A stretch of DNA of 10,937 nucleotides from Desulfuromonadaceae bacterium (GTDB lineage: Bacteria; Desulfobacterota; Desulfuromonadia; Desulfuromonadales; Geopsychrobacteraceae): the NCBI GenBank assembly GCA_013138655.1, contig WTCI01000073.1:1-10937 (forward strand), written 5' to 3'. The position numbers and the translations under genes are program-made. Below, one piece after another: positions 3-7,447 of this stretch (its first letter is position 1; every line of letters begins with the position of its first letter). The notes beneath the pieces were generated by a model. The model made no database searches, was not told the DNA's origin, and saw nothing but the letters and a program-made list of their open reading frames with translations.

Positions 3-452
3 ACCGCAATGACCCTCGGTGGTCACGGCGACACCATGGTTCCTCTGATTCGTTATTCCAGCGTCCAGGGTATCCCGGTTATGGAACTGCTGGAGCAGAA
101 GTATGGTGCTGCCAAGGCTCAGGAAGTGATGACCGCCATGGTTGAGCGTACTAAAGCTGCCGGTGGTGAAGTTGTCAAGCTGCTCGGTAACGGCAGTGCT
201 TTCTATAGCCCGGCTTCTTCGGCAGTGGCGATGGCTGAGTCGATTCTTAAGGATCAGAAGCGTGTCCTGCCGACTTGTGCGCTGCTGAACGGTGAGTTCG
301 GTGTTGACGGTTTCTACGTCGGTGTTCCTTGTGTTCTCGGTTCCGCCGGTATTGAGAAGATCATTGAATTCAAGCTGGACGAGACCGAGCAGGCGCTGAT
401 GGACAACTCTGTGGCTGCGGTCAAGGAGCTTGTCGGCAGCATGGGCATCTAA
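3..452 (+). CDS. mdh: Malate dehydrogenase, C-terminal part (5' end outside window)
   Basis: This is the C-terminal 149 residues of an NAD-dependent malate dehydrogenase of the lactate/malate dehydrogenase family, which interconverts malate and oxaloacetate in the cytoplasmic TCA cycle. The frame is open from the first bases of the window, so the start lies upstream, and the first ATG at position 9 is internal. The visible part begins at the family's active-site segment GGHGDTMVP, whose His is the catalytic proton acceptor. It continues through the substrate-domain stretch beginning [10 protein letters not shown] and a typical C-terminal part containing [17 protein letters not shown]. The TAA stop is at 450-452 and a strong hairpin follows. 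The gene sits directly ahead of the kor operon, an arrangement I recall from Geobacter, and this supports malate rather than lactate as substrate. The substrate-selecting N-terminal loop is not visible. Confidence 0.93.
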
Positions 453-475
453 GGGTCTACCTACTGGATTGATCC

Positions 476-507
476 AGAAGGGCAGCCGCCAGGCTGCCCT
501 TCTTGTT
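476..507 (+). terminator. Rho-independent terminator after mdh
   Basis: A perfect 12-bp stem (476-487 pairs with 492-503) closes a 4-base loop and is followed by a short, interrupted T-rich stretch (TTCTTGTT). It begins 24 bases after the mdh stop. The T-tract is imperfect, so some read-through into kor is possible. Confidence 0.82.
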
Positions 508-588
508 AGGTGTATTTAAGAAACTGCATGAAATGATTGTGGTTTCGTCTGCCTCTGCAAGATGAATCAGAACGGCGAAGTGGTTTAA

Positions 589-601
589 GTATACTGTATA
601 C
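589..601 (+). promoter_or_regulatory. Palindromic operator candidate upstream of kor operon
   Basis: GTATACTGTATAC is two GTATAC half-sites around a central T, which makes it an odd-length palindrome and also a tandem repeat. It contains TATACT (590-595), a 5-of-6 match to a sigma-70 -10 element, but I see no good -35 at the right distance. It lies about 98 bases ahead of korD. The reverse complement matches the site overlapping the acnB promoter at 4776-4788 in 12 of 13 positions. GTATAC-type cores are known for some GntR-family repressors. The actual regulator is not identified. Confidence 0.55.
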
Positions 602-622
602 AAGATTTATCTGGTGCCTGGT

Positions 623-653
623 CGCCGCTTGTGTTAAGCTCCCGCCGCTTCTG
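623..653 (+). repeat. Two direct repeats in the kor leader
   Basis: CGCCGCTTGTG (623-633) and CGCCGCTTCTG (643-653) differ at one base and are exactly 20 bp apart, about two helical turns. A small hairpin GCTGT-TGAA-ACAGC follows at 658-671, just ahead of the korD ribosome binding site. These could be a tandem protein-binding site or leader structure. No function is shown. Confidence 0.35.
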
Positions 654-698
654 TCAGGCTGTTGAAACAGCAATCACATGTAAAGGAGAAAGACGCTA

Positions 699-893
699 AT
701 GAGCGCGAAAGCGGAAATCGAGATCATCGAGAGATACTGTAAGGGCTGCAACATTTGTGTTGAATTCTGCCCTACCAAGGTTCTGGAGATGGACGCATTT
801 GTTGTCAAGGTAGTCAATGCTGATGCATGTATCGCATGTAATCAGTGTGAATTACGCTGCCCTGATTTCGCCATCAAAGTTCACAAGCTGTAA
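699..893 (+). CDS. korD: 2-oxoglutarate:ferredoxin oxidoreductase, delta subunit (2[4Fe-4S] ferredoxin)
   Basis: This 64-residue protein is a bacterial-type dicluster ferredoxin. It carries two Cx2Cx2Cx3CP motifs, CKGCNICVEFCP near residues 14-25 and CIACNQCELRCP in the C-terminal third, giving eight cysteines for two [4Fe-4S] clusters. As the delta subunit of a four-subunit 2-oxoacid:ferredoxin oxidoreductase it should pass electrons from the thiamine site to external ferredoxin in the cytoplasm. The ATG at 699 has AAAGGAG at 682-688, 10 bases upstream. It is the first gene of the operon and korA follows 21 bases later. The assignment as delta subunit rests on length, cluster motifs and the immediately following alpha, beta and gamma genes. 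Confidence 0.92.
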   Translation: MSAKAEIEIIERYCKGCNICVEFCPTKVLEMDAFVVKVVNADACIACNQCELRCPDFAIKVHKL

Positions 894-914
894 TTCGCTA
901 GAGGAGGTCGGTTC

Positions 915-2048
915 GTGGCTAAAAAAATAGCTCTATTACAGGGGAATGATGCCTGTGCCCACGGCGCACTTTATGCCGGGTGTACGTTTTTCGGCGGTTA
1001 CCCCATTACTCCCTCCACCGAGGTTGCGGAAGTTATGTCTCAGGAACTTCCCAAGGTCGGTGGTACTTTTATGCAGATGGAAGACGAGATCGCCGCTATG
1101 GCAGCAATTCTCGGTGCTTCCCTGGCCGGTGCCAAGGTGCTTGATGCAACCTCGGGTCCCGGTATGTCACTCAAGCAGGAACTGATCGGCTACGCCTGTA
1201 TCGCCGAGATTACCTGTGTCGTTGTCAATGTCATGCGTGGCGGCCCGTCGACCGGAATGCCGACCGGCCCGAGCCAGTCGGATATGCAACAGGCGAAGTG
1301 GGGAACCCACGGGGACCATGCAGCTATCGTTTTGACTCCGGCTTCCTGCCAGGAGCTCTACGAAGAAACGGGGCGTGCCTTCAATATGGCTGAAAAATAT
1401 CGCATGCCGGTGCAGATTCAGATTGACGAAATTGGCGCCCATATGCGTGAGCGGGTCGAGTTTGCCGAGCCCGGTGAGCTTGAGGTGATTGACCGTGAAG
1501 TCACTACGCTTTCACCTGAAGAATACGAGCCCTACGCTGATACCGAGAGTATTGTTGCGCCGCTGGCTCCCTTCGGCAGTGGCTATCGCTATCATGTCAC
1601 AGGCCTGAATAAGAGTGCTGACGGCTTCCCGACCACCAAGGCTGAATTGGTCGCCCATGAAGAGCAGCGCCAGATCGACAAGGTCGCGCTCAATGCGGCC
1701 GATATCGAGAAAAACGAGGAATATCAGCTGGAGGATGCCGAGGTTGTTCTCTTTGCCTATGGAACGACCAGTCGAAGCGCACGTTACGCAGTGAACGAAC
1801 TGCGTAAGGAAGGCGTCAAGGCCGGTATGTTCCGCCCCCTGACCATGTGGCCCTTCCCCGAGAAGCGGATTGCCGAACTGGCTGATCAGGCCAAGGCGAT
1901 CGTTTGCGCAGAGATGAATCTGGGGCAAATGGTGATCGAGATTGATCGCGTGGCTAAAGGGAATTGTGTAGTTGCCCACATCGGGCGTGTCGATGGGGAG
2001 CCGATCAATCCCGGCCAGATCATCGACAAGGTCAAGGAGGTTCTCTAA
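915..2048 (+). CDS. korA: 2-oxoglutarate:ferredoxin oxidoreductase, alpha subunit
   Basis: This 377-residue protein is the alpha subunit of a four-subunit 2-oxoacid:ferredoxin oxidoreductase (oxidative decarboxylation of 2-oxoglutarate to succinyl-CoA, CO2 and reduced ferredoxin). The N-terminal pyrimidine-binding domain shows GGYPITPSTE (YPITPST at residues 29-35), the acidic QMEDE segment, and the conserved GGPSTGMPTGPSQSD loop. From about residue 275 a transketolase C-terminal-like domain follows (VVLFAYGTTSRSA, FRPLTMWPFP). The start is GTG at 915, because GAGGAGGT at 901-908 is well placed. Its TAA stop shares one base with the korB ATG, implying translational coupling. Substrate is inferred: malate dehydrogenase and aconitase next door favour 2-oxoglutarate, but a branched-chain 2-oxoacid enzyme has the same architecture. 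Confidence 0.93.
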   Translation: MAKKIALLQGNDACAHGALYAGCTFFGGYPITPSTEVAEVMSQELPKVGGTFMQMEDEIAAMAAILGASLAGAKVLDATSGPGMSLKQELIGYACIAEITCVVVNVMRGGPSTGMPTGPSQSDMQQAKWGTHGDHAAIVLTPASCQELYEETGRAFNMAEKYRMPVQIQIDEIGAHMRERVEFAEPGELEVIDREVTTLSPEEYEPYADTESIVAPLAPFGSGYRYHVTGLNKSADGFPTTKAELVAHEEQRQIDKVALNAADIEKNEEYQLEDAEVVLFAYGTTSRSARYAVNELRKEGVKAGMFRPLTMWPFPEKRIAELADQAKAIVCAEMNLGQMVIEIDRVAKGNCVVAHIGRVDGEPINPGQIIDKVKEVL

Positions 2049-2863
2049 TGGCGTACGATTACGAAAAATCGATCCGTCCGGGCAAACTGCCTCATATCTG
2101 GTGTCCCGGTTGTGGTCATGGCATTGTCCTGAAGGGGCTGATCCGGGCTATGGACACCTGTGAGCTGGATAGGGACAAGACCGCTGTTGTTTCCGGTATC
2201 GGCTGTGCCAGTCGTCTGCCGGGTTATCTTGACGCATGCACCCTGCATACCGCCCATGGCCGCGCCGCCGCTTTTGCGACCGGAATTAAAATGGCCAAGC
2301 CGGAAATGACGGTTCTTTGCGTTGGTGGTGATGGTGATGGTACGGCAATCGGCGGTAACCACTTCATCCATGCTTGCCGTCGCAACATTAATATGACCTA
2401 TGTCATCATGAACAACTACATCTACGGCATGACCGGTGGCCAGTTTTCTCCCTGCACCCCGACCGGCATGAAAGCCTCAACCACGCCTTACGGCAACCCT
2501 GATCCGATTTTTGATATCAGCAAGTTGGCGATCGGTGCCGGTGCAACTTATGTTGCCAGAACCACTGCTTTCCATGCGACTCAGATCGATAAATTGATCG
2601 CTGAGGGGATTAAGCACAAGGGGATGGCCGTCATTGAAGTTCTGGATGACTGTCCGACCTCTTATGGACGCCGGAACAAGTTTCGCAGTGTGGTCGAGAT
2701 GATGAAGCGTCTTAAAGATATTGCTGTGCCAGTCACTGCCGCAGCGAAGATGACTGATGAGCAGTTGGAAGGCAAGGTCTTGACCGGTGTTCTTTTTAAG
2801 GAAGAGCGACCGGAATACACCGAGCAGTATGCTCAGCTCATCCAACGCGTCCAGGGCGCCTGA
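2048..2863 (+). CDS. korB: 2-oxoglutarate:ferredoxin oxidoreductase, beta subunit (TPP-binding)
   Basis: This 271-residue subunit carries the thiamine diphosphate site of the Kor complex. Visible elements are WCPGCGHG (residues 18-25), the GDGD diphosphate/Mg motif at residues 94-97, and the NNYIYGMTGGQ segment (122-132) that completes the metal and cofactor pocket in this family. Length matches stand-alone beta subunits. The ATG at 2048 overlaps the korA stop, with a very strong AAGGAGG at 2034-2040 inside the end of korA. An in-frame extension back to 1964 lies wholly inside korA and is not family-like, so I rejected it. korC follows 22 bases later. It works only with KorA, and electrons leave through KorD. 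Confidence 0.94.
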   Translation: MAYDYEKSIRPGKLPHIWCPGCGHGIVLKGLIRAMDTCELDRDKTAVVSGIGCASRLPGYLDACTLHTAHGRAAAFATGIKMAKPEMTVLCVGGDGDGTAIGGNHFIHACRRNINMTYVIMNNYIYGMTGGQFSPCTPTGMKASTTPYGNPDPIFDISKLAIGAGATYVARTTAFHATQIDKLIAEGIKHKGMAVIEVLDDCPTSYGRRNKFRSVVEMMKRLKDIAVPVTAAAKMTDEQLEGKVLTGVLFKEERPEYTEQYAQLIQRVQGA

Positions 2864-2885
2864 TTACCTAAAGGGGAATTGAATC

Positions 2886-3437
2886 ATGGCTGAAAGATAT
2901 GAAATTCGATTTTCCGGTGCTGGTGGTCAGGGTCTGATCACGGCCGGAATTATTTTGGCAGAAGCAGCGTCAATCGTTGATAACAAGTACGCTGTTCAAT
3001 CGCAAAGCTACGGTCCCGAGGCGCGTGGTGGGGCCTCGAAGGCTGAGGTTATTATCTCGGATGAGCCGATCGACTATCCCAAGGCTACAGTCGTTGATGC
3101 CTGCCTGGCAATGACGCAGGAAGCCGCAGACAAGTATGCCGTCGGCATCAAGCCGGGAGGCCTGTTGCTCATAGACACTGACTTTGTGAAAAATGCGCCC
3201 AAAGGCGATTTCAAAGTCTATGACATGCCGATTATTCGGACTGCTAAAGAAGAGATTGGTCGGGAAATTGTCGCCAATGTGATCGCTTTGGGTGCTATGA
3301 TCGCATTGACTGACGTTGTTTCCCGTGAATCCGGGGAAACGGCGGTACTACGAAAGGTTCCGGAAGCCTTTATCGACCTGAATAAGAAGGCTTACAGCCT
3401 TGGGTTCGAAAAGGTTAAAGAGCTGTTGGCGAAGTAA
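2886..3437 (+). CDS. korC: 2-oxoglutarate:ferredoxin oxidoreductase, gamma subunit
   Basis: This 183-residue protein is the gamma subunit of the 2-oxoacid:ferredoxin oxidoreductase, the domain that in this superfamily contributes to CoA handling. It begins with the hallmark GAGGQG (residues 11-16) and has the conserved QSYGPEARGGASKAEV segment. Length fits stand-alone gamma subunits of about 180-190 residues. The ATG at 2886 has AAGGGG at 2871-2876. It is the last gene of the korDABC operon and a terminator hairpin begins 37 bases after the stop. With all four subunits intact, the enzyme should be functional. Confidence 0.93.
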   Translation: MAERYEIRFSGAGGQGLITAGIILAEAASIVDNKYAVQSQSYGPEARGGASKAEVIISDEPIDYPKATVVDACLAMTQEAADKYAVGIKPGGLLLIDTDFVKNAPKGDFKVYDMPIIRTAKEEIGREIVANVIALGAMIALTDVVSRESGETAVLRKVPEAFIDLNKKAYSLGFEKVKELLAK

Positions 3438-3473
3438 TTCTGTCGCCGGATAAATTAAGATAGGCTACAAGGG

Positions 3474-3510
3474 AGGCCCGGTGTGTTTTGCGCCGGGCCT
3501 TACTTTGTTT
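3474..3510 (+). terminator. Terminator after korC, immediately ahead of the FKBP gene
   Basis: An 8-bp GC-rich stem (AGGCCCGG at 3474-3481 pairs with CCGGGCCT at 3493-3500) with an 11-base loop is followed by TACTTTGTTT. It lies only 17 bases before the next ATG. Transcription of the isomerase gene must therefore either read through it or start upstream of or within it. Confidence 0.75.
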
Positions 3511-3527
3511 AAACAGCAGGAATCGTC

Positions 3528-4214
3528 ATGAAATTTTTTTTGTTGGCTTTTGTTCTTGTCACAATACTGATATCTGGAGCCTTCGCTCAGGAAACTCCGA
3601 TGACAGAAAAAGACAAACGGGGCTACGCCATCGGTATGAGTGTCGGCATGAATATGAAAAAACAGCATGTTGATGCCACCGCTGAGTTGTTGGCTGCAGG
3701 TCTCAAAGATGCATTTGCCGGGACCGGAACCCTGTTGACAGAAGAGGAAATGGTCCAGATACTCACCGCCTATCAGCAGGAAATGCAGATGAAGCAGATG
3801 GCGGAACAGGCCGCTATCGCAGCCGCACAGGTGAAAAAATCTGCACTTTTTATGGAAGAAAACGGCAAAAAAGAGGGTGTGAAGACCTTGCCGAGCGGTT
3901 TGCAATATAAGGTTCTGACTGCCGGTACCGGTCAGTCACCTGCCGCAGATTCGACTGTCGAAGTGCATTATCAGGGCCAACTGGTTGATGGTACCGAGTT
4001 CGACAGCTCATACCTGCGTGGTGAACCGGCAACGTTTCCGGTGAATGGTGTGATTTCCGGCTGGACTGAAGCCCTCCAGTTGATGAAAGAGGGTGCCAAG
4101 TGGCAGTTGGCGATTCCCGCAGCACTGGCTTATGGGGAACGGGGTTTCCCGCCGGCCATTCCACCTGCCTCTGCTCTTATCTTTGAAGTCGAACTTCTTA
4201 AAATTGTTGAATAA
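3528..4214 (+). CDS. Exported FKBP-type peptidyl-prolyl cis-trans isomerase (Mip/FkpA-like)
   Basis: This 228-residue protein has a signal peptide (residues 1-20: two N-terminal basic/aromatic residues, a hydrophobic core, and AFA before Gln21), so it should act in the periplasm. No lipobox Cys is present. Residues about 25-115 form a helical Met/Gln/Glu-rich N-terminal domain of the FKBP_N type, a dimerisation arm in Mip and FkpA. Residues about 120-228 are an FKBP catalytic domain with the expected pocket segments VHYQG, GTEFDSSY, FPVNGVISGW, ALAYGERG and a terminal FEVELLKI strand. The likely role is folding of exported proteins by proline isomerisation. The ribosome site (CAGGAA at 3517-3522) is modest. 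A strong terminator lies downstream at 4399-4435, past a palindromic repeat. Its place between two TCA units suggests no direct metabolic link. Confidence 0.92.
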   Translation: MKFFLLAFVLVTILISGAFAQETPMTEKDKRGYAIGMSVGMNMKKQHVDATAELLAAGLKDAFAGTGTLLTEEEMVQILTAYQQEMQMKQMAEQAAIAAAQVKKSALFMEENGKKEGVKTLPSGLQYKVLTAGTGQSPAADSTVEVHYQGQLVDGTEFDSSYLRGEPATFPVNGVISGWTEALQLMKEGAKWQLAIPAALAYGERGFPPAIPPASALIFEVELLKIVE

Positions 4215-4216
4215 TT

Positions 4217-4367
4217 GTAACTATTCAGCATTGTCAGATCAGGAGAAAAAATGTCTGTCATCCCCGAGTGCTGCTATCGGGGATCCAGTCTTTCTGTCTT
4301 CTAAACTCTGGATTCCGGCTAAAATCCTGCCGGAATGACTGTCTTTTGTACTGTGCTGAATAGTTAC
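4217..4367 (+). repeat. Nested inverted-repeat element (MITE-like), outer pair
   Basis: GTAACTATTCAGCA at 4217-4230 is repeated perfectly in inverted orientation as TGCTGAATAGTTAC at 4354-4367. The 14-bp arms enclose 123 bases, within which lies a second palindromic element (4256-4340). The left arm starts two bases after the isomerase stop codon. No transposase is encoded inside. Size and perfect terminal inverted repeats suggest a small non-autonomous mobile element or an intergenic repeat family, but other copies cannot be checked here. Confidence 0.6.
4256..4340 (+). repeat. Inner twin-hairpin palindromic repeat
   Basis: Two adjacent hairpins are bordered by GTCAT (4257-4261) and ATGAC (4335-4339). 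Hairpin one is ATCCCCGA (4260-4267) with TCGGGGAT (4277-4284). Hairpin two is ATTCCGGC (4312-4319) with GCCGGAAT (4329-4336). The centre carries TCCAG (4284-4288) facing CTGGA (4308-4312). This GTCAT-hairpin-CCAG...CTGG-hairpin-ATGAC layout resembles a type of intergenic palindromic repeat seen in many proteobacterial genomes; that resemblance is from memory. Confidence 0.6.
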
Positions 4368-4608
4368 GAATAATTTGTTCTTTCCCTGGCTTATTGCCAG
4401 CCCCACCAGAGTGAAATCGGTGGGGCTGTTTTTTTGCGATTGTAGAAGAATGAACATCCCGCCCCGTGTTCCATAACCGCTCTGTGTCAGGCTTTTTCCT
4501 GTTTCTGATCTGTGGTGTCGGCCGGGTTCTTTGCGTCTGTTCAATTTCCGGCAGAAACTGACTCAATATAATCAGGACGATACTTCCGAGTAACAGCATT
4601 TCGAACAT
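4258..4608 (-). CDS. Possible small membrane-anchored protein, unrecognised
   Basis: This would be a 116-residue protein that I do not recognise. The support is an excellent ribosome binding site, AAGGAGG at 4620-4614 with 5-base spacing to the ATG at 4608, and an N-terminal hydrophobic segment (about residues 4-19, LLLGSIVLIILSQFL) followed by a very polar, basic, Arg/Gln/Lys-rich remainder, as in single-pass inner-membrane proteins. It diverges from acnB. Against it, the last 70 or so residues are encoded by the complement of the FKBP terminator and the nested palindromic repeat, so the C-terminus looks accidental. The gene may have been extended or disrupted when the repeat arrived, or only the first 40-50 codons may be ancestral. 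An upstream in-frame ATG at 4662 has no such ribosome site. No signs of a known domain. Confidence 0.35.
   Translation of the reverse strand: MFEMLLLGSIVLIILSQFLPEIEQTQRTRPTPQIRNRKKPDTERLWNTGRDVHSSTIAKKQPHRFHSGGAGNKPGKEQIIRNYSAQYKRQSFRQDFSRNPEFRRQKDWIPDSSTRG
4399..4435 (+). terminator. Strong rho-independent terminator (end of FKBP transcript)
   Basis: A perfect 9-bp stem (AGCCCCACC at 4399-4407 pairs with GGTGGGGCT at 4419-4427) is followed at once by GTTTTTTT. It is oriented for + strand transcription. On the - strand no T-tract follows, so it would not stop the opposing transcript. Confidence 0.87.
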
Positions 4609-4656
4609 CTCTACCTCCTTGTCGATTTTCCTTTTAGTCGTTATCGCTCCTCTCTG

Positions 4657-4673
4657 TGTCATTTAATGTCATT
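4657..4673. repeat. Short tandem repeat TGTCATT, 10-bp period
   Basis: TGTCATT occurs at 4657-4663 and 4667-4673, one helical turn apart, in the space between the two divergent starts (4608 and 4889). It could be an operator for the - strand ORF, or chance. Nothing identifies a binding protein. Confidence 0.25.
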
Positions 4674-4754
4674 GTCTTGGTGGTGGGGGAAATTTAAAGA
4701 TATTTTGAGCTGCGTTAAACTATGGTTTTTCGCTTGAAATAGGACATGTGAAGA

Positions 4755-4782
4755 TTGACAGTTATGGCTGAAATCGTATACA
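4755..4782 (+). promoter_or_regulatory. acnB promoter (sigma-70 type)
   Basis: A consensus -35 TTGACA (4755-4760) is followed after 16 bases by TATACA (4777-4782), a 4-of-6 -10 element. Transcription would start near 4789-4790, leaving a leader of about 99 bases. The leader contains a small hairpin GCAGC-TGT-GCTGC (4852-4864) ahead of the acnB ribosome site. Confidence 0.65.
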
Positions 4783-4788
4783 GTATGC
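4776..4788 (+). promoter_or_regulatory. Operator candidate overlapping the acnB -10
   Basis: GTATACAGTATGC differs at one position (4787) from the reverse complement of the kor-upstream site at 589-601. Because it covers the -10 and extends to the expected start point, a bound protein would block polymerase. This is the classic repressor arrangement. Confidence 0.55.
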
Positions 4789-4888
4789 AGTGTTTTGCTC
4801 ACGTCATAACTTGAAACTGTGGCAAGGAACATTTGAAAATTTACCTGTCGTGCAGCTGTGCTGCGAAACTGATAATCGGAGGATAGAG

Positions 4889-7447
4889 ATGATTGAAGCT
4901 TATTTAAAACATGAAGAAGAACGGAATACTCAAGGGATTCCCGCTCTACCGTTGAGCCCTGAGCAAACGACTGAACTTTGCAATCTGCTGCAGAGTCCTC
5001 CTGCTGGTAAAGAAGATTTTTTGATGAATCTGCTTACCGAGCGGATTTCTCCCGGTGTTGATCCTGCTGCGCAAGTAAAATCAGCTTTTCTGACAGAAAT
5101 TATCACCGGAAGCAAGACTTCTCCATTGATCGATAAAACTAAGGCGCTTCAGATCCTTGGTACTATGCTGGGCGGTTATAATATCCAACCATTGATTACT
5201 GCCTTGCAGATTGCTGAACTTGCTGACGAAGCGGCCTCTGCTTTGAGCGGCATGGTTATGGTTTATGATGCTTTTGATGATGTCTTGGCATTGTCGAAAA
5301 GCAATGATGCAGCCAAAAAAGTTATTAAATCTTGGGCTGCAGCTGAGTGGTTTACCGCTAATCCTGAATTTCCTGAGACTATTACGGTCAAGGTGTTCAG
5401 GGTTGATGGCGAGATCAATACTGATGATTTCTCTCCCGCGAGTGATGCTTGGAGCCGTTCCGATATTCCATTTCACGCACTGTGTATGGGTAAAATGCGT
5501 TTTCCCGGTGGTTACGAAGAGATGGCAAAATGGCGTGCCGAAGGAAACGATGTGGCATTTGTCGGTGATGTGGTCGGTACCGGTTCCTCGCGTAAATCCG
5601 CATGTAACTCGGTTTTGTGGCATATTGGCCAAGATATTCCGGCGGTGCCCAACAAACGCCGTGCCGGTGTGATTATCGGTAGTGCAATGGCGCCTATCTT
5701 TTTTAACACCGCACAGGATTCCGGCGGGTTGCCACTGCGCATGAATGTGAATAAATTGAAGCACGGCGAAGTTATTACCATCAATACCAAGGCCGGCAAA
5801 GTAACGGATGCCGCCGGTGCAGAACTTTCGAGTTTTGAAATTGCCCCCAATACTGTCAGCGATGAGTTTCGTGCCGGTGGTCGTTCCACATTGATTATCG
5901 GGCGTAAACTGACTGAGCGTGCTTGTGCCGCATTAGGTCAAGCCGTACCCGATCTATTCATTAAACCGAACAATCCTGAGGTGAAAGCCGGTCAAGGTTT
6001 CTCTCTGGCGCAAAAAATGGTGGGTAAAGCTTGTGGCGTTGCCGGAGTTCTTCCCGGTACAGCTTGTGAGCCGACCATGACCACGGTTGGTTCTCAGGAT
6101 ACCACCGGTACTATGACCTCTGATGAACTGAAGGAACTGGCTTGTCTCAAGTTCCAGGCACCGATGTTCATGCAGTCTTTTTGTCATACTTGTGCTTATC
6201 CCAAGCCATCCGATGTGGTGATGCACAAGACATTGCCCGCGTTTGTTACTGAACGCGAAGGTGTGGTTTTGAACCCCGGTGACGGTGTTATTCACAGCTG
6301 GCTGAATCGTTTGGGTCTGCCTGATACTGTCGGTACCGGTGGTGATTCTCATACCCGTTTCCCTCTTGGCATCAGTTTTCCGGCCGGTTCCGGTCTGATC
6401 GCTTTTGCCGGTGCTCTTGGTTTTATGCCTTTGGATATGCCCGAATCGGTATTGGTGCGTTTTAAAGGTGAGCTTAACGAAGGGATTACCCTGCGTGATG
6501 CTGTTAATGCCATTCCCTTCTGGGCCATCAAACAAGGGCTGATGACTGTCCCTAAAAAGAACAAGATCAATATCTTCAATGGTCGTATTATGGAGATCGA
6601 AGGTCTGCCCAATTTGTCCGCTGAACAGGCTTTTGAACTGACAGACTCTGCCGCTGAACGTAGTGCCGCTGCCGGTTGTATTCAATTGTCCGAAGAATCA
6701 GTCACAAAATATTTACGTTCCAACGTCGCACTGATGGAAGCGATGATCAAAGATGGTTATGCTTACGCTCCGACCCTGCAAAAGCGGATTGATGCTGTTA
6801 ACGAGTGGTTGAAGAATCCACAACTGCTCAAGGCCGATAGCAATGCTGAGTATGCAGCTGTGATTGAGATTGATTTGGCTGAGATCACTGAGCCGATTTT
6901 GGCCTGCCCGAACGATCCTGATGATGTCAAGCTGTTGTCTGAAATTCAGGGCACCAAAATTCAGGATATCTTCCTCGGTTCCTGTATGACCAATATCGGT
7001 CATTTCCGTGCAGCGGCGAAGATTTGGGAAGGTAACAAATTTAATCCCAACGATCGCGTGTGGATCTGTCCTCCAACCCGTATGGATCAGTCAAAATTGA
7101 AGGATGAAGGCTATTTTGCCATCTTTAATCAGGTTGGTGCCCGTATTGAAACTCCGGGTTGTTCACTGTGCATGGGCAATCAAGCGCGTGTTCCCGATGG
7201 TGTAAATATGTTCTCCACTTCAACGCGTAACTTTGATGATCGTATCGGAACCGGCGCACAGGTTTATCTCGGCAGTGCCGAGTTGGGTGCTGTGACCGCG
7301 CTCAAAGGTGAGTTGCCGACCCCGGCCGAGTACTTGGCTATTTACAAAGATAAAGTTTCTCCTCACAAAGAAGAAGTTTACGATTATCTTCAATTAGATG
7401 AATTGGGAGAAGAGTACAACGCCATTTATAAGCGTTGCGATATTTAA
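4889..7447 (+). CDS. acnB: Aconitate hydratase B (bifunctional aconitase/2-methylisocitrate dehydratase)
   Basis: This 852-residue AcnB-type aconitase isomerises citrate to isocitrate through aconitate; E. coli AcnB is 865 residues. Domain order is the AcnB one: an N-terminal HEAT-like domain (about 1-160), then the swivel domain 4 (about 165-385, containing DDFSPASDAWSR and GTGSSRKSACNSV), then the catalytic core with GGDSHTRFPLG. The [4Fe-4S] ligands are Cys699 (GSCMTNIGH) and Cys758/Cys761 (GCSLCMGNQ), with the same 59- and 62-residue spacings as E. coli Cys710, Cys769 and Cys772. The start is the ATG at 4889, with GGAGG at 4878-4882 and the family-typical MIEAYLKHEEER. A GTG at 4790 would add 33 unlike residues lying in the leader. 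The gene is monocistronic, with its own promoter and terminator. Members of this family can also act on 2-methylisocitrate. No prp genes are in view, so the TCA role is favoured. Confidence 0.97.
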   Translation: MIEAYLKHEEERNTQGIPALPLSPEQTTELCNLLQSPPAGKEDFLMNLLTERISPGVDPAAQVKSAFLTEIITGSKTSPLIDKTKALQILGTMLGGYNIQPLITALQIAELADEAASALSGMVMVYDAFDDVLALSKSNDAAKKVIKSWAAAEWFTANPEFPETITVKVFRVDGEINTDDFSPASDAWSRSDIPFHALCMGKMRFPGGYEEMAKWRAEGNDVAFVGDVVGTGSSRKSACNSVLWHIGQDIPAVPNKRRAGVIIGSAMAPIFFNTAQDSGGLPLRMNVNKLKHGEVITINTKAGKVTDAAGAELSSFEIAPNTVSDEFRAGGRSTLIIGRKLTERACAALGQAVPDLFIKPNNPEVKAGQGFSLAQKMVGKACGVAGVLPGTACEPTMTTVGSQDTTGTMTSDELKELACLKFQAPMFMQSFCHTCAYPKPSDVVMHKTLPAFVTEREGVVLNPGDGVIHSWLNRLGLPDTVGTGGDSHTRFPLGISFPAGSGLIAFAGALGFMPLDMPESVLVRFKGELNEGITLRDAVNAIPFWAIKQGLMTVPKKNKINIFNGRIMEIEGLPNLSAEQAFELTDSAAERSAAAGCIQLSEESVTKYLRSNVALMEAMIKDGYAYAPTLQKRIDAVNEWLKNPQLLKADSNAEYAAVIEIDLAEITEPILACPNDPDDVKLLSEIQGTKIQDIFLGSCMTNIGHFRAAAKIWEGNKFNPNDRVWICPPTRMDQSKLKDEGYFAIFNQVGARIETPGCSLCMGNQARVPDGVNMFSTSTRNFDDRIGTGAQVYLGSAELGAVTALKGELPTPAEYLAIYKDKVSPHKEEVYDYLQLDELGEEYNAIYKRCDI

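Follow-up and report, generated by a model that had tools for sequence, protein, structure and literature searches.

A shared palindromic operator ahead of korDABC and acnB and a candidate autoregulated GntR/FCD regulon in Desulfuromonadia

Results

The same palindrome precedes korDABC and acnB

The window studied here is a stretch of 10,937 nucleotides from a Desulfuromonadaceae bacterium (assembly GCA_013138655.1, contig WTCI01000073.1), that is, contig C79 of a draft genome of 2.45 Mb in 364 contigs, 93% complete. It begins inside mdh and carries korDABC, for a 2-oxoacid:acceptor oxidoreductase, and the aconitase gene acnB (Table 1). An earlier note on this DNA had read one palindromic operator ahead of both korDABC and acnB and had proposed that these two tricarboxylic acid (TCA) cycle transcription units answer to a single repressor. 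From its distribution in this genome and in the class Desulfuromonadia, we regard both palindromes as probable operators of one autoregulated FadR-type GntR protein (GntR plus FCD domain), encoded at L016 (3606-4316), which would repress genes of acetate oxidation and respiration.

The kor copy, GTATACTGTATAC, matches the motif GTATACNGTATAC (GTATAC-N-GTATAC) without mismatch and is a perfect palindrome around its central base, and the acnB copy, GTATACAGTATGC, has a single mismatch; both stand where the note had read them. They are the only matches in the window at ≤1 mismatch, a level at which 200 dinucleotide shuffles of the window gave a mean of 0.00. At ≤3 mismatches the shuffles averaged 1.45 matches and 86 of 200 reached two, so that two matches would be unremarkable at that level. 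The hexamer GTATAC, which the note had found by eye nowhere else, occurs three times in the window, every time within the two sites. At acnB the palindrome contains the -10 of a good promoter (TTGACA, N16, TATACA), as the note had described, and this is the position of a repressor.

Table 1. Features of the window around the two putative operators
Feature	Position	Strand	Basis and remarks
mdh, 3' part	3..452	+	open reading frame (ORF) open at its 5' end, contig starts inside; named by eye against ORFs before kor in relatives
hairpin in the mdh-korD gap	476..503	+	12 bp, fold -24.7 kcal/mol; likely terminator
kor operator, GTATACTGTATAC	589..601	.	motif match; putative
TATACT hexamer within kor operator	590..595	+	-10 role doubtful
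korD, ferredoxin-like delta subunit	699..893	+	Fer4 above cut-off
korA, 2-oxoacid:acceptor oxidoreductase alpha	915..2048	+	ORF; named by eye and from operon context
korB	2048..2863	+	ORF, start by eye at 2048; named from operon order
korC	2886..3437	+	ORF; named from operon order
acnB -35, TTGACA	4755..4760	+	hexamer match; spacing kept in relatives
acnB -10, TATACA, within operator	4777..4782	+	spacing kept in relatives
acnB operator, GTATACAGTATGC	4776..4788	.	motif match; putative
acnB, aconitate hydratase 2 / 2-methylisocitrate dehydratase	4889..7447	+	TIGR00117, 1312.1 bits (cut-off 1287.2)

The best NCBIfam model for korD is OorD, yet below its cut-off (59.4 vs 93 bits), and korA has relatives in 90 of 98 genomes of the class. 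A simple promoter scan of positions 450-4900 was uninformative, with five promoters found and 4.5 expected.

The motif marks energy-metabolism genes across the genome

A scan of the whole genome, which the earlier note had proposed, set the motif apart from chance. At ≤1 mismatch it occurs at 16 places, against one for the reversed motif, our control throughout the motif counts; the idea of a randomly scattered motif was dropped on this control, in this genome and in relatives. The 16 places form 12 clusters, which we read as standing upstream of genes that belong, with few exceptions, to energy metabolism (several gene names are backed by Pfam or NCBIfam, the rest were assigned by eye): korDABC, acnB, gltA, sdh, nuoA on two contigs with nearly identical flanks (C2 and C21), atp, an SfrAB-like pair, a PpcA-like triheme cytochrome, a GntR/FCD regulator, a multihaem cytochrome and an mrp/mnh antiporter. 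The gltA and sdh sites are also overlapped by a mechanically called ORF. The atp site, before the F0 b' ATP synthase gene, consists of overlapping sites in a 7-bp phase.

Sites with two mismatches were set aside as evidence, since they are near parity with the control (41 minus 16 places vs 19 minus 1); several of those examined fall inside ORFs, and one lies ahead of a gltB-type glutamate synthase gene (L029). The icd gene, which in relatives precedes mdh-kor, was searched for in the draft genome without a match and is probably missing from the assembly.

Two of these regions have features of their own. Before the ATP synthase genes (L018, 559-599) there are five overlapping matches (four with one mismatch, one with two) in 7-bp phase, GTATACAGTATATTGTATACAGTATATTGTATACTGAATAT, possibly an array for several dimers. 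The nuoA promoter with its operator is present in near-identical form on two contigs (L017, 5558-5577, and L019, 232-251), probably through strain variation within the draft assembly.

A GntR/FCD gene has the site in its own promoter and accompanies the motif

The candidate regulator gene encodes a GntR winged helix (PF00392, 70.3 bits, cut-off 27) and an FCD domain (PF07729, 93.9 bits, cut-off 24.3). Its promoter holds a perfect site within the spacer, ending 32 nt ahead of the gene start. We examined up to 250 bp upstream of gntR in the best 80 of 280 relatives from named genomes, most of them titled as Desulfuromonadales, Desulfuromonas, Geobacteraceae or Deltaproteobacteria. All 79 testable relatives (the remaining one has 2 bp upstream) carry the motif, 75 with no mismatch and four with one, while the reversed control has three mismatches at best. 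The site starts exactly 6 nt past a TTGACA-like hexamer in 71 of the 79. The promoter spacer is a classic place for autorepression, and a site so nearly invariant looks like autoregulation.

Across the class, the motif follows the gene. At an E-value of 1e-30 gntR is present in 161 of 194 genomes, which hold a median of 11 sites (6-19), compared to two (0-13) in the 33 genomes without it; the median of the reversed control is two in both sets. Among genomes at least 95% complete, five or more sites are found in 131/131 with gntR and 7/22 without. In seven named genomes the counts are 9-16 for the motif and 0-1 for the control. The gene also reaches beyond the class: of 118 genomes drawn from the phylum, 16 have a match at 1e-60, and 12 of these lie outside the class, with 47-53% identity. 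The note's suggestion of a GntR-type regulator is supported, as a prediction, by this gene, its own site and its company with the motif.

Divergent from gntR, and sharing its operator region, lies a potassium-channel-like gene (L016, 2477-3559; below the NCBIfam cut-off), and a similar neighbour was seen by eye at four of five gntR loci outside the order. A record titled as a Chloroflexi metagenome-assembled genome (L036) carries a gntR 98% identical to that of our genome; its bin or its name is probably wrong.

The operator is kept at acnB and at further targets

Upstream regions were compared in 33 genomes with gntR and seven without. At acnB a site with ≤1 mismatch lies within 400 bp in 33/33 of the former and 0/7 of the latter, whose best matches have 4-5 mismatches. 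In 32 of the 33, a gap of 14-17 nt separates the end of a TTGACA-like hexamer (≤1 mismatch) from the site, so that the operator covers the -10. In two genomes of one genus that lack gntR (G028 and G076), TTGACA and TCGTATACA are kept at acnB and the second half-site is lost; there the acnB promoter appears to have survived while its operator decayed. The idea of one regulator for two TCA cycle units gains support from the motif standing at both, from its non-random distribution and from this conservation at acnB, and is kept here as a prediction.

In the same genus (L176, L177, L238, L259) the acnB, icd and gltA promoters are all kept, with operators at 2-4 mismatches; the regulon of G028 and G076 looks caught in decay.

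In the icd-mdh-kor cluster, an operator with ≤1 mismatch precedes mdh in 10/33 gntR-bearing genomes and lies about 3.8-4.0 kb before korA in 18/33. The latter is the expected start of icd, a placement based on how far it lies from korA and on the 3' part of icd read in relatives. G008, with a different gene order, has two such sites, 2.9 and 5.3 kb before korA. None of the seven gntR-less genomes has a site at ≤2 mismatches in the 2.6 kb upstream of korA; G028, the sole one followed further, shows a remnant with two mismatches where icd begins.

Other targets follow the same pattern. The gltA site is found in 19/19 gntR-bearing genomes fetched (18 with one mismatch, one with two) and, at ≤2 mismatches, in 0/5 without gntR (3-5 mismatches), one of which, G052, has a match of the reversed control at two mismatches. 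The nuo site is present in 15/15 and missing from G028, the only gntR-less genome fetched. Malonomonas rubra falls in the genus group of the window and has 16 motif places in 15 clusters, ten of which match targets of our genome (gntR, acnB, mdh-kor, atp, sdh, gltA, the ppcA neighbourhood, a cytochrome, nuo and sfrAB-like genes), and a further one precedes a second ATP-synthase operon (L287, by eye). Geobacter argillaceus has 11 places. Three precede gntR, icd and acnB; among the eight read by eye are sites before nuo-like, sfrA-like and fumarase-like (L298) genes and one, in L297, at a distance of 0.7 kb from an ETF-like gene, whereas four (L294, L295 and two in L296) could not be clearly assigned.

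Departures from the perfect palindrome are specific to the target. The acnB site has G at its twelfth base in 24/33 genomes and the gltA site varies at its second base, and perfect palindromes prevail at icd (13/19), mdh (8/10) and gntR (75/79). Such conserved departures suggest tuned affinities.

The predicted protein fits a palindromic operator

GntR proteins bind short palindromes. Residues 45-58 of the candidate, its recognition region, are identical in 81/81 proteins, in keeping with the invariant operator. An AlphaFold2 model of P0001, 97% identical to our protein, has a mean pLDDT of 88.3 and matches the structures of AlkR/VanR, PmiR, TM0439, DhdR and FadR, which agrees with the FCD assignment. 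His135, His139, His183, Arg164 and Arg166 are invariant among the 81 sequences.

Discussion

The palindromes ahead of korDABC and acnB appear to be part of an autoregulated GntR/FCD regulon that spans most genomes of the class sampled and whose binding protein is partly foreshadowed in print. The analysis shows the motif and where it stands, how well it is kept, its company with the gene and a predicted fold for the protein; from these we infer binding of the protein to the motif, a repressive effect and a class of effector. A dimer of the GntR/FCD protein would bind GTATAC-N-GTATAC; at acnB, at icd or mdh and at gntR, where the site lies over the -10 of a TTGACA promoter or in its spacer, RNA polymerase would be blocked; and release of the repressor would come from a metabolite, most likely a di- or tricarboxylate, that signals that acetate oxidation is under way. 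As to this last step, a carboxylate effector is a reasonable guess, no more.

Metal-reducing and electroactive members of the class make their living by coupling acetate oxidation to respiration, and the regulator that locally governs their TCA cycle, complex I and ATP synthase has been poorly defined. With the 13-bp operator, a candidate regulator whose own promoter bears it and a list of targets kept in many families, this question comes within direct reach of experiment. Regulation of PpcA-like and SfrAB-like genes through this site would also tie carbon flow to extracellular electron transfer.

Several observations, some of them general and others confined to kor, gltA and nuo, weigh against a single GntR/FCD repressor behind all these sites. 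At least five sites are still held by 11 of the 33 genomes with no detected gntR, several of them incomplete. Three that are at least 99% complete (G033, G080 and G140) exceed their controls with 8-13 sites and no gntR match at 1e-30. Of the seven such genomes that are at least 95% complete, G184 and G099 exceed their controls as well, and G157 and G187 do not. The five that exceed controls may hold a missed or diverged gntR, or another regulator. The genomes are related, so that the counts of co-occurrence are not independent. Four of the 15 Malonomonas rubra clusters lie at genes other than these targets (L281, L282, L288) or inside an ORF (L283). Finally, the equation of our protein with GSU3370, proposed below as probable, is based on the order of neighbouring genes and on locus numbering.

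The first difficulty is kor itself. The TATACT that the earlier note had called -10-like is present inside the site, but no recognizable -35 accompanies it, the best nearby match to TTGACA having three mismatches. Conservation is limited too: the site found at acnB in every gntR-bearing genome fetched is found directly before kor in 5/33 (≤2 mismatches), and in the remaining 28, whose operator stands before mdh or icd of this gene cluster, the best match in the mdh-korD gap has 3-5 mismatches, like the reversed control. The five are G048, G100 and G094 (one mismatch) and G059 (two), for which the stretch before icd was left out, and G013, whose two-mismatch site before korD is its second. In G043 and G092, of the same genus as our genome, the operator before mdh is complete and the best match before kor has three mismatches. 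It is therefore conceivable, though we doubt it, that at kor alone the palindrome is fortuitous or a relic, and that kor is controlled chiefly through the promoter on the mdh/icd side or not by this regulator at all. Against this, the palindrome is perfect in our genome, and a GTATAC half-site is found in the gap in 15/33 genomes with gntR vs 0/7 without. Moreover, mdh and kor are separated by a hairpin, and therefore kor probably has its own promoter; a perfect stem of at least 10 bp is present in the gap in 28/33 gntR-bearing and 3/7 gntR-less genomes. We hence keep kor among the putative targets of the GntR/FCD protein, with a site that is perfect here and whose position seems evolutionarily mobile.

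The hairpin has a side to it that concerns its sequence. In the window and in the mdh-korD gaps of relatives (L179-L211), most genomes read share a hairpin of strongly similar sequence, AGAAGGGCAATGG..CATTGCCCTTCTT or AGAAGGGCAGCC.., and because its letters are kept, not just their pairing, it is suggested to do more than a plain terminator.

The second difficulty is geometry. Sites recur in three arrangements: at acnB, icd and mdh they cover the -10, at gntR they fall in the spacer, and at gltA and nuo they stand 8-12 nt upstream of the -35. In the first group, the -35 ends 14-15 nt before the icd site in 17/19 genomes and 14 nt before the mdh site in 10/10. In the third, an activator-like place, the site ends 8-10 nt before the -35 at gltA in 16/19 and 10-12 nt before it at nuo in 12/15, the other three being in both cases genomes outside the order; at the ppcA-like gene of our genome, too, the site comes first and TTGACA second. 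Sites over the -10 or in the spacer would mean repression. Sites just upstream of the -35, a stretch that RNA polymerase occupies together with its alpha C-terminal domains, would be compatible with repression or activation. Rodionov 2004 took such a place as a sign of activation (PMC545781).

The two conserved geometries could thus reflect a dual regulator, the same GntR protein repressing acnB, icd/mdh and gntR itself and activating gltA, nuo and ppcA. We find this rather unlikely, and favor repression throughout, because G012, G059 and G040, all three outside the order, have their nuo site 22 nt downstream of a -35, because opposite control of citrate synthase and aconitase would be odd and make little metabolic sense, and because the gltA promoter (TTGACT/TTAGAA) persists in the gntR-less G028. 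A bolder version, somewhat less probable still, would make one metabolite-sensing GntR/FCD protein the master switch of acetate respiration in the class Desulfuromonadia, repressing aconitase, icd-mdh-kor and itself through sites on the -10, activating citrate synthase, complex I and ppcA through sites placed shortly ahead of the -35, and reading a tricarboxylate, for example citrate or isocitrate. If true, this switch would balance entry into the TCA cycle against flow through it.

Among proteins of known structure, the best match by sequence in the Protein Data Bank (PDB) is PmiR of Pseudomonas aeruginosa (7xp0, 7xp1), at 33% identity. PmiR reportedly senses 2-methylisocitrate, going by the title of its paper. 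Its targets are different. An Asp of its FCD pocket (7xp0) corresponds to His135 in our protein, and its late His to position 205, which in our family is Thr in 53, Asn in 17 and Ala in 11 of the 81 sequences. VanR/Atu1419 (6za3, 6z74) shares the GntR-FCD fold and palindromic DNA and, according to the entry titles, holds a fortuitous citrate in 6z74; it differs in being a vanillate regulator.

The earlier note had named HgtR, known in Geobacter to repress central metabolism in a hydrogen-dependent manner, as a possible binding protein, and here the evidence points elsewhere. Although the targets reported for HgtR (GSU3364) in a passage of PMC7726332, the downregulated gltA, atpG and nuoA, overlap with genes that carry the motif in our genome (gltA, atp, nuoA), it is very improbable that the operator belongs to HgtR, with gntR just another target of it: in the 194 genomes the motif goes with gntR, the nearly constant site ahead of gntR looks like that of an autoregulated gene, and HgtR is another protein at another locus. 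A passage of PMC2725144 gives HgtR a predicted RpoN-dependent promoter. The palindromic form of the site is, in turn, what knowledge of the family leads one to expect of a GntR protein.

In the literature on Geobacter regulators that we covered, we recognized no paper stating the operator; Ueki and Lovley 2010 lies outside that scope and may describe part of it. GntR is absent from the main text of Rodionov 2004 (PMC545781), and the repeat classes that PMC2700814 reports for G. metallireducens (GTTGCTYN, TCTCCGTS, MTYCTGA) are other motifs.

The closest counterpart of our regulator is a G. sulfurreducens protein. A gntR homologue is found in 15/15 genomes of the genus searched, and at L138 the gene order, read by eye, is gntR-selA-ispD-ispF-glnS-cysS, which we take to fit GSU3370 down to GSU3365. 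On this basis our GntR/FCD protein is probably the orthologue of GSU3370, with HgtR a neighbour and a different protein. According to a passage of PMC10599522, citing Ueki and Lovley 2010, GSU3370 is a GntR family protein that binds the gltA promoter, and the same source describes its mechanism and its role in central metabolism as little known. Our protein resembles GSU3370 in family and, by prediction, in target, with the motif at gltA in its own genome and in all the gntR-bearing relatives compared there, and it departs from GSU3370 as described by the operator, the putative autoregulation and the wider regulon proposed here.

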